64,000 nucleotides of DNA from Nocardioides plantarum (GTDB lineage Bacteria; Actinomycetota; Actinomycetes; Propionibacteriales; Nocardioidaceae), in NCBI RefSeq assembly GCF_006346395.1, contig NZ_VDMS01000001.1, positions 1 through 64,000 of the forward strand, read 5' to 3'. Every line of letters begins with the position of its first letter. Position 1 is the first letter of the stretch. Of the stretch, positions 4,652 to 53,040 are shown piece by piece. The notes below the pieces were generated by a model, which did no database searches, had not been told where the DNA came from, and saw only the letters and a list, made by a program, of their open reading frames with translations. Position numbers and translations under genes: made by a program.

Positions 4652-5577
4652 CGTGACTCCTCGAGCAGGAACGCCAGGACCGCCTTCTGGGCGTGGCGAC
4701 GGTTCTCGGCCTCGTCCCAGACCACGCTCTGCGGCCCGTCGATGACCTCGGCGGCGATCTCCTTGCCGCGGTAGGCCGGCAGGCAGTGCAGGGCGATCGC
4801 GTCGGGACGCGCCAGCGCCAGGAGCTCGGGGGTCAGCGAGTAGGGCGCGAACACCGCGGTCCGGGCGGACTCCTCGGCCTCCTTGCCCATCGAGATCCAC
4901 GTGTCGGTGACGACGACGTCGGCGCCGGCCACGGCGCTCTCGGGCTCGTCGTACGCCGTGGCGGATCCGCCGGTCCCGGTGCCGATCTCGGTGGCCCGCG
5001 CGAACATCTCCGCTGACGGCTGGAACCCCGCCGGGGCGGCGATCCGGACGTGCATGCCGGCGGTGGCGCCGGCGAGCAGCCACGAGTTGCCCATGTTGCA
5101 GGCACCGTCGCCGACGAAGGCCACGGTCAGCCCGGCCAGCGCGCCCTTGTGCTCGCGGACCGTGAGCAGGTCGGCGACCAGCTGGCACGGGTGGAAGTCG
5201 TCGGTGAGCGCGTTGACGACCGGGACGCCGGCGTGCGCGGCCATGGTGTCGAGATCGGCCTGGAAGAACGTGCGCCAGACGACGACGGAGACCTGGCGGG
5301 CCAGCACGCGGGCGACGTCCTCGACCGACTCGCGCACGCCGATGCCGGCCAGGCGTCCCTCGACGAGCATGGGGTTGCCGCCCAGCTCGGCGATGCCCGC
5401 CCCGAACGACACCTGGGTGCGCAGGGTGGGCTTGTCGAAGATCATCGCCACCGAGCGCGGGCCCTCGAGCGGGCGCCGCGAGTAGGGAGCGGCCTTGAGC
5501 TCGGCGGCCAGGTCGAGCAGGCGGCTCTGCTCGGCGGGGGTGAGGTCGTCGTCGCGCAGGAAGTGACGCAGGGTCAT
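4648..5577 (-). CDS. argF: Ornithine carbamoyltransferase with an altered phosphate-binding motif
   Basis: Makes citrulline from ornithine and carbamoyl phosphate. 309 residues with the carbamoyl-phosphate domain first and the ornithine domain second. DFHPCQ (about residue 127) and HCLPAYRG (about 266) are intact, as is [12 protein letters not shown] near the end. The carbamoyl-phosphate loop, usually STRTR, reads TLRTQ at residues 51-55: the central Arg-Thr is kept but the first Ser-Thr and last Arg are changed. The position between argD and argR and the HCLPA motif still support ornithine carbamoyltransferase. ATG 5577 shares TGATG with argD. Confidence 0.93.
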
Positions 5578-6794
5578 CAGGACTCCCCCATCGCGTCGTC
5601 GAGGATCGCGGGCCAGGCCTCGAGGAACGCCGCGGCATCGGCCTCGGACAGCACCAGCGGCGGGGCGAGCCGGATGCGGTGCGGGGTCGGGTTGTTGACG
5701 ATGAAGCCGGCCCGCAGGGCGGCGGCGGCGACGTCGGCGGACACGTCGGACGCCAGGTCGAGCCCGATCAGCAGCCCCTCGCCACGCACCTCGGTGACCC
5801 GCGGATCGGCCAGGAGGCCGTCACGCAGCTTCTGGCCCAGCACGGTCACGTGGTCGAGCAGGCCCTCGGCCTCGATCGTGTCGAGGACCGCGAGCGCCGC
5901 AGCGCACGCCACGGGGTTGCCGCCGAAGGTGGTGCCGTGGTTGCCGGGCTGGAGCAGGTCGCCGGCCGCACCCAACGCGATGCAGGCGCCGATCGGGAAG
6001 CCGCCGGCCAGCCCCTTGGCGAGCGTGACGACATCGGGCACGACGCCGCTGCGGTGGTGCTCGAGCCAGAGCCCGGTGCGGCCGACTCCCGTCTGGATCT
6101 CGTCGAACCAGAGCAGTGCTCCGTGTCGGTCGGCGACGGCACGGGCCGCGGCGAGGTAGCCCTCGGGCGGGACGACGACGCCGGCCTCGCCCTGGATCGG
6201 CTCGAGCAGGACGGCGGCGGTCTCGTCGGTCACGGCGGCGGCGAGCGCGTCGGCGTCGCCGTACGGGACGAAGGTGACGTCGCCGGGCAGCGGCTCGAAC
6301 GGCGTGCGGTAGGCCTCCTTGGACGTCAGCGCGAGCGCGCCCATCGTACGGCCGTGGAACCCGCCTGCGGCGGCGACGACGTGGGGGCGTCCGGTACGGC
6401 GGGTGAGCTTGAACGCCGCCTCGACGGCCTCGGTCCCGGAGTTGGTGAAGAAGACCTTGCCGGGTGACGGGGTCTCGAGGCTCGCTTCGCTCGCACCTCG
6501 ACCGCCGTCAGCGGTGACCAGCGCGAGGAGACGCTCGGCGAGGGTGATCTGCGGCTCGGAGGCGAAGAAGTTGGAGATGTGGCCCAGCGTCGACAGCTGC
6601 TCGGTCACGGCTGCGACGAGCGCCGGGTGGGCGTGCCCGAGGGCGTTGACGGCGATGCCGCCGAGCAGGTCGACGTACTCCTTGCCGTCGGTGTCCCAGA
6701 CGTGGGCGCCCTCGCCGCGCGCGAGCGTGAGCCTGGGCGGACCGAAGGTGTTCATGAGGGAGGCTGCGTAGCGCTCCTGGTGCGGGTCAGCCAT
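5577..6794 (-). CDS. argD: Acetylornithine aminotransferase with a repeat-encoded insert
   Basis: PLP-dependent class III aminotransferase converting N-acetylglutamate semialdehyde to N-acetylornithine. 405 residues. The PLP lysine is K260 in [14 protein letters not shown], the FFTNSGTEA motif is at about 115-123, and [12 protein letters not shown] at 230-241. About 15 residues before FFTNSG (residues about 96-111, [15 protein letters not shown]) have no counterpart in the family; they are encoded by the palindromic repeat at 6471-6503, inserted in frame. ATG 6794 overlaps the end of argB by 8 bases. Confidence 0.96.
6471..6503 (+). repeat. Palindromic repeat (short-core type) inside argD
   Basis: Thirty-three bases: left box GGTCTCGAGGCTC, core GCTTCGC, right box TCGCACCTCGACC. 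Both 13-base boxes are identical to those of the elements at 15083 and 51735; only the core differs. It sits in frame within argD. Confidence 0.85.
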
Positions 6795-15049: not shown

Positions 15050-15260
15050 GGCCGGGCGTGGGGTGGGTGCGTCGGCTGCGGCGGTCTCGAGGCTCAGGCC
15101 TGGCGGCCTTCGCACCTCGACCGGCGTGGGGGCGGCCTTCGCACCTGGCCGGGCGTGGGGTGGGTGCGTCGGCTGCGGTGGTCTCGAGGCTCAGGCCTGG
15201 CGGCCTTCGCACCTAGACCGACGTGGGGGCGGCCTTCGCACCTCGACCGACGGTGGGGGC
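15050..15260 (+). repeat. Tandem repeat: two 97-base units plus a partial copy
   Basis: Two 97-base units (15050-15146 and 15147-15243) differing at only a few bases, then a partial third start. Each carries one 40-base stem-loop element (15083-15122; 15180-15219): left box GGTCTCGAGGCTC, core stem AGGCC/GGCCT with a TGGC loop, right box TCGCACCTCGACC (one base changed in copy 2). The array fills the 239-base space between the convergent ABC permease and the lipoprotein gene. No gene or RNA is seen in it. Confidence 0.9.
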
Positions 15261-41151: not shown

Positions 41152-41280
41152 CTGCGTGCGCTTACCATCCGGACTTTCACCGTCGGTCCAGGATTTTCAC
41201 CTGGTCAACCGCTCACTGGCTGTGAGCGGGTCGCGGACTGTCACCGCCGGCTCGGAATTGCACCGACCCCAGAGCACGCG
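41152..41280 (-). ncRNA. FMN riboswitch (RFN element)
   Basis: On the minus strand, the conserved blocks appear in order: GGGGTCGGTGCAATTCCGA (41270-41252), CCGGCGGTGACAGTCCGCGA (41250-41231), a variable P4-P5 hairpin (CCGCTCAC...GTGAGCGG), GACCAGGTGAAAATCCTGG (41206-41188) and ACCGACGGTGAAAGTCCGGA (41187-41168). GCGTGC and GCACGC close P1. It precedes ribD by about 100 bases. Between them, GGCCCTC (about 41132-41126) could pair with the GAGGGGCC that contains the ribD ribosome binding site, so control is probably translational; no U-rich terminator is seen. Confidence 0.95.
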
Positions 41281-41352
41281 AGCAAGGTTCGCTCGTCTCC
41301 TCGATCGTGCCACACGCGTCGGTCGGGCTCGCCATGAGACGTGTCACGTGGC

Positions 41353-49178: not shown

Positions 49179-51221
49179 TCACAGCACCACGGGGTCGACC
49201 TGCACACGGACGGCGTCGAGCTTGCGGCTGGACCGGATCCGTTGCAGCTCGCCGAGGGCGTGGGAGAGGTCGGCGCCGCGGGCCCGCGGGGTGCGTAGGA
49301 CCAGGCGCTCCTCGTCGGGTCCGGCCGGGACGGGGCCGAGCACCTCGACGTGCGGTGGCGGCGCGAGCAGGGTGAGGGCGTCGTCGACGGCTCCGGGCTC
49401 GCCGGTCACGGTGGCCAGCCGGGTGGTCGGCGGCAGCCGGGCCTCGCGACGCTCGTCGGCCTCGCGCCGGGCGAACCCGGACTGGTCCCAGCGCACGAGC
49501 GCCTGGACGGCGGGGTGGGTGGGGTCGCCCACGACGAGGACCCGGCCGCCGGGACGCACCAGGCCGACCGCGTTGCTCCAGCGGCGCAGGGCCTCCTCGG
49601 CGGCGCGCAGGTCGTCGCGCCCCAGCAGCAGCCAGGTGTCGAGCAGCACGACCGCGGCGTAGCCGCCCTCGGCGACCGGCTCGGCCCCGGGGGTGGCGAC
49701 GACGATGGCCGGGGCGTCGGGCACCTCGCTCAGCACGTGCTCCCCCGCCGACTGACGCACGCGGGTGCTCGGGAACGCCCGGCCCAGCTCCTCGGCCGTG
49801 CGCGCCTCGCCCAGCACGGGAGCGCGCATCCCGGCGGCCCCGCACTCGGGACAGGCCCAGCCGACCGCCGCAGTCGCGCACCAGCGGCACGCCGGGGGCG
49901 TGGTGGGCGAGGTGAGTGCGAGCGGCCCGGCGCACGCGGCGCAGCGGGCCGGCTCGCGGCAGCGCTCGCAGGCCAGGGCCAGGGCGTAGCCCGCACGCGG
50001 GGTCTGCACCAGGACGGGGCCCTCGGCGAGGGCGCGCTTGATGAGGGCGTGGACCTGGGAGGGCATGCGCGTGCCGAAGCCGCTGGGGTCGCGGGCACGG
50101 TCGTGGTCGGTGGCACCGGCGACCGCGATGGAGACCGCCGCACGCAGGCGCTCACGGGGGGCGGCGAGCTCGTGGGCCCAGCCGCCGCGGGTGAGGTGGC
50201 CCGCCTCGACGCTGCGGGAGAAGCCGCCGATCAGCGCCGCGGCGCCTTCGCGCTCTGAGCGCAGCAGCAGCACCTCGCGGGTGTGGGGGTAGGGCGCGCG
50301 CGGCTCGGCATGCAGGTCGTCGCCGTCGTCCCAGCACACGACCAGGCCGAGGTCGCGCACCGGGGCGAACGCCGCCGCCCGGGTGCCGACCGCGATGCGA
50401 CGGCTGCCGCGCAGGACCGCGAGGAAGTCGCGGTAGCGCGCGGCCGGACCGGCATCGGCGGTGAGGGTCACGTGGTGCCCCGGGCCGAGCGCCGCGGTGA
50501 GGGCGGCGTCGACGCGGGCGACGTCCTTGCCGTCGGGAACGCAGACCACGGTGCCCCGCCCCGCGCGCAGCGCGGCCCCCGCCGCCTCGGCCACCAGGGC
50601 CGGCCAGTCGTCGCCCGGGGCGACCGCCCACACCGCACGCGGGCTCCCCCCGTCGGCGAGGTGGGCCAGGAACGCCTCGCCGGGTGCGTAGCCGTCCCAG
50701 CCGGCCGCCTGCGGCACGGTCGGCGGCTCGGCCGGGGCCGCGGCGGGCGGCTTCTTCTCGGTCGTGGCGTGCCGGGGCGGTATGGCGAGCCGCAGCACGT
50801 CGGACCGCACCCCGGCGTAGCGCTGCGCGACGTCGCCGACCAGCCCGGCCACCTGGGGGGTCAGCACCGGCTCGGCGCTCACCACCCGCCGCAGCGGCGC
50901 CAACCGGCCACCGTGGTCAGTGTGGTCGGTGCGCTCGAGGACGTAGCCGTCGACGTCCTGACCTGCGAACCGCACCTTGACCCGCACCCCTGCCACGGCC
51001 TCGGCCGCCATCGACTCGGGCACCGCGTAGTCGAAGGGACGGTCGAGGTGGGCCAGGGGTACGTCGACCAGCACCCGCGCGACCGGGTCGACCTCGGTGA
51101 TCGTCGCCTCGGCCGCCTTGCGCGACCGCGTCGCACGCGCCTTGGCCTGCGACTCCTTGAGCGTCGCGCGCACCAACCCCGGCAGCAGCTCGGGCTGCTC
51201 GTCGGGCGGGCGTGGGCTCAT
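49179..51221 (-). CDS. priA: PriA-like primosome protein lacking helicase motifs
   Basis: 680 residues. The N-terminal DNA-binding domain (VARVLVDVPLAHLDRPFDYAVP, about 50-72; VRVKVRFAGQDVDGYVL) and a zinc-binding block of eight cysteines (CERCREPARCAACAG, then CRWCATAAVGWACPECG, about 410-455) are typical of PriA. The Walker A GxGKT is absent (region of about 190-230 reads DDWPALVAEAAGAALRAGRG) and the DEEH box is replaced by WDDGDDLH (about 293-300), as known for mycobacterial and other actinobacterial PriA. It may recruit the replisome without unwinding. ATG 51221; an apparent upstream extension is only repeat sequence. Confidence 0.9.
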   Translation of the reverse strand: MSPRPPDEQPELLPGLVRATLKESQAKARATRSRKAAEATITEVDPVARVLVDVPLAHLDRPFDYAVPESMAAEAVAGVRVKVRFAGQDVDGYVLERTDHTDHGGRLAPLRRVVSAEPVLTPQVAGLVGDVAQRYAGVRSDVLRLAIPPRHATTEKKPPAAAPAEPPTVPQAAGWDGYAPGEAFLAHLADGGSPRAVWAVAPGDDWPALVAEAAGAALRAGRGTVVCVPDGKDVARVDAALTAALGPGHHVTLTADAGPAARYRDFLAVLRGSRRIAVGTRAAAFAPVRDLGLVVCWDDGDDLHAEPRAPYPHTREVLLLRSEREGAAALIGGFSRSVEAGHLTRGGWAHELAAPRERLRAAVSIAVAGATDHDRARDPSGFGTRMPSQVHALIKRALAEGPVLVQTPRAGYALALACERCREPARCAACAGPLALTSPTTPPACRWCATAAVGWACPECGAAGMRAPVLGEARTAEELGRAFPSTRVRQSAGEHVLSEVPDAPAIVVATPGAEPVAEGGYAAVVLLDTWLLLGRDDLRAAEEALRRWSNAVGLVRPGGRVLVVGDPTHPAVQALVRWDQSGFARREADERREARLPPTTRLATVTGEPGAVDDALTLLAPPPHVEVLGPVPAGPDEERLVLRTPRARGADLSHALGELQRIRSSRKLDAVRVQVDPVVL

Positions 51222-51246
51222 GGGTCGTTGTCTACCAGCGACCACC

Positions 51247-51486
51247 GACCCCCACGTCGGTCGAGGTGCGAAGGCCGCCAGGCCTGAGCCTCGAGACCCC
51301 TGCAGCCGACGTACCCCACCCGACCCGACCCCCACGCCGGTCGAGGTGCGAAGGCCGCCAGGCCTGAGCCTCGAGACCCCCGCAGCCGACGTACCCCACC
51401 CGACCCGACCCCCACGCCGGTCGAGGTGCGAAGGCCGCCAGGCCTGAGCCTCGAGACCCCCGCAGCCGACGTACCCCACCCGACCC
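51247..51486 (-). repeat. Tandem repeat: three 80-base units
   Basis: Three nearly identical 80-base units (51247-51326, 51327-51406, 51407-51486). Each contains the same 40-base stem-loop element as the array at 15050, in the opposite orientation (51259-51298, 51339-51378, 51419-51458), plus the flanking GTCGGCTGC segment. It begins 26 bases upstream of the priA start. The units follow directly on each other with no unique spacers. Confidence 0.92.
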
Positions 51487-51535
51487 GAGTCCTGCCGCGA
51501 TCGGGGTCCTCGGCCCGGGGGCGCATGACGGGTGG

Positions 51536-51680
51536 GCGGTGACACAGCGACCGAACCCCGTCACGGACACGTCGGCCAGCCACCGCCCCCTCGCCCGGGC
51601 GGTGGTACGGCGACCGAACGCCGGCCCGAGAAGGTCGCCAACTCACCCCTCGATCCGCGAGCGGTGACTCAGCGACCCGA
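51536..51680 (+). repeat. Three degenerate direct repeats spaced ~62 bases
   Basis: Related 20-base segments start at 51536 (GCGGTGACACAGCGACCGAA), 51599 (GCGGTGGTACGGCGACCGAA) and 51661 (GCGGTGACTCAGCGACCCGA). The sequence between them is not conserved. They fill the space between the 80-base array and the metK-proximal stem-loops; I see no gene in 51487-51710. Confidence 0.65.
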
Positions 51681-51710
51681 CCCCGACATCTACGACGACA
51701 GAAGACGTCG

Positions 51711-51804
51711 CTCGAGACCGCAGGACCCTGCGGCGGTCTCGAGGCTCGGCGCTAGCGCGCCTCGCACCTCGACCGACGTGGCGCCTCGCACCTCGACCGA
51801 CGTG
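51711..51804 (+). repeat. Stem-loop repeats downstream of metK
   Basis: First, CTCGAGACCGC (51711-51721 region) pairs with GCGGTCTCGAG (51733-51743), with CCGCAGG/CCTGCGG continuing inwards. Overlapping it, a 40-base element (51735-51774) has left box GGTCTCGAGGCTC, core stem GGCGC/GCGCC with loop TAGC, and right box TCGCACCTCGACC. The right box is repeated at about 51783-51797. The first hairpin could end metK transcription, although no U-tract is present. Confidence 0.8.
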
Positions 51805-51837
51805 TGGTGACCGACCCGGCCGGCGTACGACGAGAGG

Positions 51838-53040
51838 TCAGACGCCCGCAGCAGCCTTCAGCGCGTCGGCGCGGTCGGTCCTCTCCCAGGTGAACTCGGG
51901 CAGCTCGCGACCGAAGTGGCCGTAGGCCGAGGTCTTGGCGTAGATCGGGCGGAGCAGGTCGAGGTCGCGCAGGATGGCGGCGGGGCGCAGGTCGAAGACC
52001 GACAGCACGGCGGCCTGGATCTTCTCGTCGCTGACGACACCGGTACCGAAGGTCTGCACGAAGACGCCGACCGGCTGGGCCTTGCCGATGGCGTAGGCGA
52101 CCTGGACCTCGCACCGGCGGGCCAGGCCCGCGGCGACGACGTTCTTGGCGACCCAGCGCATGGCGTAGGCGGCCGAGCGGTCGACCTTCGAGGGGTCCTT
52201 GCCGGAGAAGGCGCCGCCACCGTGGCGGGCCATGCCGCCATAGGTGTCGACGATGATCTTGCGGCCGGTGAGGCCGGCGTCGCCCATCGGTCCGCCGACG
52301 ACGAAGCGCCCGGTCGGGTTGACGAGCAGCCGGTAGCCCTCGGAGGGCAGGTCGAAGGTGCTGAGCACCGGGTCGATCACGTTCTGCTGGATCTCGGCCT
52401 GGAGCTTGTCGAGGTCGGTGTCCTCGGAGTGCTGGGTCGACAGCACGACGGTGTCGATGCGGACGGGGCGGTCGGCATCGTCGTACTCGATGGTGACCTG
52501 GGTCTTGCCGTCGGGGCGCAGGTTGGGCATGGTGCCGTTCTTGCGGACCTCGGTGAGCTTCTCGGCCAGGCGCTGGGCGATCACGATGGGGAGCGGCATC
52601 AGCACGTCGGTGTCGTCACAGGCGTAGCCGAACATCAGGCCCTGGTCGCCGGCACCGCGGGCGTCGAGCTCGTCCTCGGAGGAGCCGACGCGCTGCTCGA
52701 TGCCGGAGTCGACGCCCTGGGCGATGTCGCTGGACTGGGCACCGATGGCGACCTGGACGCCGCAGGTGAGGCCGTCGAAGCCCTTGTCGGAGGAGTCGTA
52801 GCCGATGTCGAGGATGGCGCCGCGCACCAGGTCGGCGACCGGGGCGTACGCCGTGGTGCGGACCTCGCCGGCCACGACGACCAGGCCGGTGGTGATCAGG
52901 GTCTCGACCGCGACGCGGAGCTTGTCGGTGTCGGGGTCGTTGGCCATCAGGTAGTCGAGCACCGTGTCGCTGATGCGGTCGGCGATCTTGTCGGGGTGAC
53001 CCTCGGTCACGGACTCAGAGGTGAACAGGCGTCCGGCCAC
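51838..53040 (-). CDS. metK: S-adenosylmethionine synthase
   Basis: Makes SAM from methionine and ATP. 400 residues: [18 protein letters not shown] (about 5-22), [12 protein letters not shown] (about 129-140), [18 protein letters not shown] (about 275-292, including the GGGAFSGKD phosphate loop) and the C-terminal [15 protein letters not shown] 53040 gives the standard N-terminus; no strong ribosome binding site. It follows coaBC after 103 bases with a possible -10 TAGGAT near 53087. Confidence 0.97.

Follow-up and report, generated by a model that had tools for sequence, protein, structure and literature searches.

Repeated hairpins in Nocardioides plantarum that border many DUF222-HNH genes, their candidate agents of spread

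We analyzed a 64,000-nucleotide stretch of Nocardioides plantarum DNA (hereafter the window; GCF_006346395.1, NZ_VDMS01000001.1, positions 1-64,000), which carries a family of short hairpin elements, and followed these elements to the repeated DUF222-HNH genes that they accompany. The genome, coded G000, comprises 4.68 Mb in nine contigs. A preliminary description of the window had placed two 13-base boxes at seven positions, and we found both boxes at 7/7. The copies, including a four-base tail discussed below, and two right-half copies are as follows:

6471-6507, plus strand: hairpin element of 33 bases (6471-6503), core GCTTCGC, with GCCG tail; in frame within an aminotransferase-like open reading frame (ORF; 5577-6794, minus strand).
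15083-15126, plus strand: hairpin element of 40 bases (15083-15122), core AGGCC-TGGC-GGCCT, with GGCG tail.
15180-15223, plus strand: hairpin element of 40 bases (15180-15219), core AGGCC-TGGC-GGCCT, with GACG tail; the right box (15207) reads TCGCACCTAGACC, with one change.
15228-15252, plus strand: right-half copy without left box (right box 15236), with GACG tail.
51255-51298, minus strand: hairpin element of 40 bases (51259-51298), core AGGCC-TGGC-GGCCT, with tail; first of three at 80-bp spacing.
51335-51378, minus strand: hairpin element of 40 bases (51339-51378) with tail; second of the three.
51415-51458, minus strand: hairpin element of 40 bases (51419-51458) with tail; third of the three.
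51735-51778, plus strand: hairpin element of 40 bases (51735-51774), core GGCGC-TAGC-GCGCC, with GACG tail.
51780-51802, plus strand: right-half copy only (right box 51786), with GACG tail.

The three core types and the one-base change in the 15180 copy are as first described, and the first two cores, compared by eye, differ at 3/5 stem pairs and remain complementary at all of them. The strand of the copies at 51259, 51339, and 51419, previously unstated, is minus. These three make up 80-bp-spaced units (51255-51498), each consisting of one element and a similar spacer. Because the units appear almost identical by eye, the three copies probably arose by recent duplication. The 6471 element is an in-frame 33-base insertion in its aminotransferase-like gene, which we take to be argD-like by our own judgement; its place in an ORF had also gone unmentioned in the preliminary description. 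Thirty loci were fetched for this gene and 15, including its own, passed the anchor; the element was missing from 14/14 aligned relatives in the genus.

The element is amplified and dispersed well beyond the window. The exact pattern, GGTYTCGAGGCTC-N4-30-CGCACCTCGACC, has 135 copies in G000 and its reversed control has 0, so the family is not a product of chance. An open pattern ending in RACC, which overlaps the exact set, gave 150 copies, and a variant with GGCY/AGCC as its outer stem gave 36. On contig 1, 19 gaps between neighboring copies were shorter than 600 bp (1.2 expected), and 12 of these 19 pairs were inverted. We made a rough survey of the location of 30 of the 135 copies using a home-made ORF caller, with some loci overlapping: 6 lay in convergent gaps, 11 in tandem gaps, 1 in a divergent gap, and 3 inside called ORFs, with 9 not classifiable, which places 18/21 classifiable copies outside called ORFs. 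Among the matches listed, the exact boxes occur in at least Nocardioides, Pimelobacter, Janibacter, Gordonia, and Amnibacterium genomes. Twelve such genomes held 6 to 230 copies each of a cross-genome pattern (CGAGGCTC-N4-30-TCGCACCTCR; control 0 in 12/12). The element was present in 57/118 genomes of a genus sample and in 1/197 of a phylum sample, the one being G000 itself, which makes the latter sample unable to test phylum-wide co-occurrence.

The anatomy was defined on 306 distinct elements taken from the retrieved loci. The hairpin starts with GGTY/RACC, then has TC as a two-base bulge, then GAGG/CCTC; an internal loop that does not vary (CTC / TCGCA) leads to a core that does. Pairing of the outer boxes around a two-base bulge had been proposed earlier. 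The fourth outer pair is C-G in 223 elements, T-A in 72, and T-G in 2, and is unpaired in 9. A conserved RNCG tail, overlooked in the preliminary description, follows the right box (after CCTCRACC); its CG is present in 284/306 elements, and on the other strand it reads CGNY in 280/306 and exactly CGTC in only 29/306. No base before the left box (before GGTY) is strongly conserved. The element thus carries an unpaired conserved tag at one hairpin foot only.

The hairpin stem covaries. Across 84 distinct 40-base elements, 91.2% of cells were paired in the named structure (81.5% when shuffled), and double-changed cells numbered 108, compared with 38.9 expected from shuffles and a maximum of 51 in 500 shuffles. 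Repeated on 45 hand-picked elements, this test found 91.3% paired and 54 double-changed cells versus 18.1, and sliding the pairing partners in these cut pairing to 32-41%. Among 83 distinct cores, 267 of the 335 stem pairs that were expected are formed; in 2000 half-swaps the count never exceeded 225. Paired changes in excess of shuffles support the earlier suggestion that selection on pairing preserves the fold. The number of pairs with a double change in the 84 elements, 7, is not unusual (170/500 shuffles). Self-complementarity of the cores is incomplete, and this counts in part against the preliminary description, which had named cores that do not pair with themselves as refuting it. Pairing fails at core positions 15-26 in 45/84 elements and at 16-25 in 43/84, because the common GTCGC..GCTCC class carries a TC/TC mismatch there and leaves 2/5 core pairs unpaired; short cores have one or two pairs only.

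The gene to which the hairpins are physically linked encodes a DUF222-HNH protein. G000 has 15 DUF222 (PF02720) matches, all above the cut-off; the DUF222 protein P0002 scores 74.5 bits against a cut-off of 24.4. Nine of the G000 copies are close (proteins 84-91% identical), and 6/9 are preceded by one or two intact antisense elements, 100-220 bp ahead of the open frame. We examined 105 DUF222 loci, comprising the 15 from G000 and 90 taken from 146 DUF222 matches in twelve other genomes. Of the 90, 30 were tool-assigned and 60 hand-chosen, the latter biased toward full-length and repeated copies and picked before their flanks were seen, with the caveat that element positions in G001 and G006 had already been listed. 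The exact pattern occurred in the 1.3-kb window around the gene at 48/105 loci (3.4 expected): 6/15 in G000, 3/9 in G001, 6/13 in G002, 13/16 in G003, 7/15 in G004, 6/10 in G007, 4/7 in G009, and 3/5 in G012, with 0/15 in G005, G006, G008, G010, and G011 together. G055 seems to be the assembly of G011 under another code (DUF222 match places and scores are identical), and it has an intact flanked copy (L309) unlisted by the family search. A looser pattern that admits other inner arms (GGTY-TC-GAG-N-CTC-RACC-RNCG) found some hairpin at 14/15 DUF222 loci in G004 and at 5/6 loci read in G107 (of 12 matches).

Elements upstream of DUF222 genes were antisense in 54 cases and sense in 2, and hairpins stood both before and after the gene in G002, G003, G004, G007, G012, and G107. 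In a tree of 104 proteins, the flanked label was clustered and recurred in several distinct subfamilies, which in most cases have multiple copies per genome. DUF222 is found in 117/118 genomes of the genus sample, and therefore its presence alone has no predictive value. Most flanked copies encode their protein in a long open frame. Many relatives match an HNH model (PF01844 or PF13391), and AlphaFold models from two subfamilies tentatively resemble the Noc/ParB DNA-binding domain and an HNH nuclease, with HNH enzymes among the fold matches; absence of a fold from the structure aligner's list does not rule that fold out. Based on these models, we predict an HNH nuclease at the C-terminus and, for the N-terminal half of DUF222, a DNA-binding fold of the Noc/ParB kind. 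A sequence search of the PDB gave a single irrelevant match.

The hairpins frequently mark the ends of the repeated units. Within a genome, pairwise homology between DUF222 copies frequently stops where the hairpin and its tail end on the outer side. The limit falls exactly there for the G001 pair, and the hairpin edge is the homology limit in 18/30 cases on the 5' side and 16/20 on the 3' side in G007, and in 16/30 on the 3' side in G002. For a G007 copy without a downstream hairpin, homology stops just short of the place that the hairpin occupies in others. In G000, 5' limits cluster at about -150 and at -209 to -230 or beyond, near the inner and the outer (often partial) hairpin, and the 3' homology edge is the stop codon. 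In G003 and G004 the homology limits are scattered, and the hairpins there are grouped. The spacing between hairpin and gene is almost constant within several families.

One unit, L157 in G000, can be compared with an empty site. The two genes that flank it are separated by 9 bp in G055, by 7 bp in G129, and by roughly 350 bp in G078; in G080 the left flank alone was matched. In G000, 4.85 kb separate the two genes, with the unit at the left end; a partial hairpin starts 5 to 20 bp past the homology end, and the full hairpin is next. Given its absence from the same site in relatives, the unit is either an insertion in G000 or a sequence lost in all four relatives. About 3.3 kb of further G000-only sequence (L317, 2571-5917) follows the unit before synteny resumes.

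Hairpins that border their presumed enzyme gene call to mind the repetitive extragenic palindromic (REP) sequences, and the preliminary description had proposed a REP-associated transposase-like enzyme (RAYT) as a possible mover. REPs and REPINs with RAYTs are presented as short imperfect hairpins in more than 100 copies, mostly extragenic, tagged at one foot, and flanking a presumed enzyme gene (PMC3116915, PMC3733652). The hairpins studied here share these features and are often clustered. Their tag is CGNY, however, instead of GTAG, and the linked DUF222-HNH gene is multi-copy per genome, whereas RAYTs are described as single-copy (PMC3116915). The Y1/HUH transposase (Y1_Tnp, PF01797) was found in 5/14 control genomes and in 0/15 element-bearing genomes (G000 and 14 others), and a RAYT as mover was rejected for this reason. 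The earlier expectation of a protein partner is likely right, but a REP-associated Y1 transposase in that role is not supported. By analogy, the system seems to work like REP/RAYT, yet it is not one, because the defining transposase was tested for and not found.

We favor, as a reasonably probable explanation, that these REP-like hairpins, bordering many multi-copy DUF222-HNH genes, are recognized by the nuclease, which spreads its own gene together with solitary hairpins. The presence of the hairpin at the ends of many copies of the nuclease gene makes DUF222-HNH the likely spreader. In the mechanism that we infer, binding of the invariant boxes would fall to the ParB-like domain, and the HNH domain would nick the hairpin foot near the RNCG tag (CGNY on the opposite strand). 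Replication or repair would then copy the element into a new site, and solitary hairpins would be non-autonomous copies or substrates, the role presumed for REPs beside RAYTs. The analysis itself shows the hairpin family with its covarying stem and one-sided tail, the physical link to DUF222-HNH genes in several genera, the frequent agreement of unit and hairpin edges, one empty site, and one element insertion; recognition, cleavage, and mobilization by the protein are inferred. Two results weigh against this explanation. Amplified DUF222 units without a hairpin exist (0/10 flanked in G072 and 0/4 in G061, with the looser pattern too). DNA folding energies of four example elements are no better than shuffles, and with these ordinary energies exceptional fold stability was rejected.

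Some insertion sequences target REPs, and DUF222-HNH units might likewise be mobile by other means and insert beside pre-existing hairpins as landing sites. Hairpins are abundant, an HNH enzyme would need a target, and there are copies without a hairpin. It is weakened by the unit edges and the empty site: spacing between hairpin and gene is near-fixed in several families, the homology between copies takes in the hairpin and often ends with it, and the relatives at L157 lack both hairpin and unit. We consider it unlikely.

Unlikelier still, in our view, the hairpins would be cis-acting sites in the DUF222 leader (operator, terminator, or RNA processing signal), spread by recombination or another enzyme. 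The antisense orientation of 54/56 upstream copies and the gaps occupied in the location survey would suit such a role. The occurrence of hairpins on both sides of the gene in six genomes weakens it, and so does the in-frame copy within the aminotransferase-like gene. No T-run terminator-like site lies within 50800-52200 and no Rfam family matches any element in the window; we set aside terminator and known RNA family on these grounds. The least likely alternative is that the hairpins owe their movement to another transposase, with DUF222-HNH units as non-autonomous passengers bounded by them: HNH nucleases are not known as classical transposases and P0002 does not reach the Pfam HNH model, as this would allow, but flanked copies mostly keep long open frames, and a weak test (149 element loci, many overlapping; a 25-family list judged by eye) found no other recurrent family near elements at several sites. 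Of the 686 ORFs in this neighbor survey, 5 were DUF222-like and 4 of these lay no more than 12 bp from an element, numbers too small and too affected by the choice of loci to count as evidence.

Extending the favored explanation, we tentatively propose, at somewhat under even chances, that there is a second class of REP-like elements, independent of HUH enzymes, and that DUF222-HNH proteins are dedicated to it. A ParB-like box reader fused to an HNH nickase would copy both the gene that encodes it and bare hairpins by the hundred within actinobacterial genomes; from one genome to the next, hairpin sequence and enzyme subfamily would change in step. Many Actinobacteria carry repeated DUF222-HNH (13E12) genes, and this reading, if true, would give the widespread family its function. 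We know of no candidate enzyme for REP-like elements that lack a RAYT. The physical link between hairpin and gene makes both the function of 13E12 and the enzyme of RAYT-less REPs testable with one protein and one short DNA.

Three known systems bear comparison. CGTC-tagged REPs (Di Nocera et al. 2013, PMC3733652) likewise carry a tag starting with CG at one hairpin foot; ours are set apart by the tag, with consensus CGNY. That survey names five phyla without Actinobacteria, a term absent from its text, and leaves the enzyme of the class open (PMC3733652). The REP13E12 / 13E12 regions of mycobacteria also repeat a DUF222-HNH protein within a genome, and are said in a recent preprint to have no defined biological function (PMC13061034). 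The texts on them that we consulted make no link to dispersed stem-loops. In searches of an open-access collection without most subscription papers, we met no title or abstract that connects dispersed hairpins with DUF222/13E12. Rickettsia palindromic elements are palindromes within genes; by description, they resemble the in-frame copies in protein genes at 6471 and in the DUF222 genes of G009.

In G009, 4/4 flanked DUF222 genes (L249-L252) hold one or two internal hairpins, translated in frame as VSRLAGARTSTTG and placed after the DUF222 part and before the HNH part; it looks as if the element had inserted into its own gene. A sister hairpin with inner arms GGCCGC..GCGGCC / GGGTTGC..GCAACC lies on both sides of DUF222 genes in G107 (L299-L304), in arrays at some. 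The hairpin-free units of G072 (L289-L298) and G061 (L305-L308) have in common another conserved 5' end, which contains repeated motifs and may be a border of a different kind. Near-identical within-genome copies without a standard hairpin in the search window were seen in G003 (L177, L189) and G009 (L174, L183, L194), with a variant 51 bp after L177. Many DUF222 genes (L152-L160, L164, L216, and others) close with Arg-Thr-stop, frequently as CGCACCTGA or a close variant; this end is similar to the right box CGCACCTCGA and, in G000, coincides with the 3' homology edge.

Half-elements were considered as a clue to copying (38 right-only, 53 left-only) and dropped, since many of those listed were variants of full elements. 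A defense-system link was set aside with no PADLOC or NCBIfam match for two DUF222 proteins, as was a tRNA-linked reading with no tRNA in the window. Away from the elements, the window contains a flavin mononucleotide (FMN) riboswitch at 41152-41281 on the minus strand (92.9 bits).
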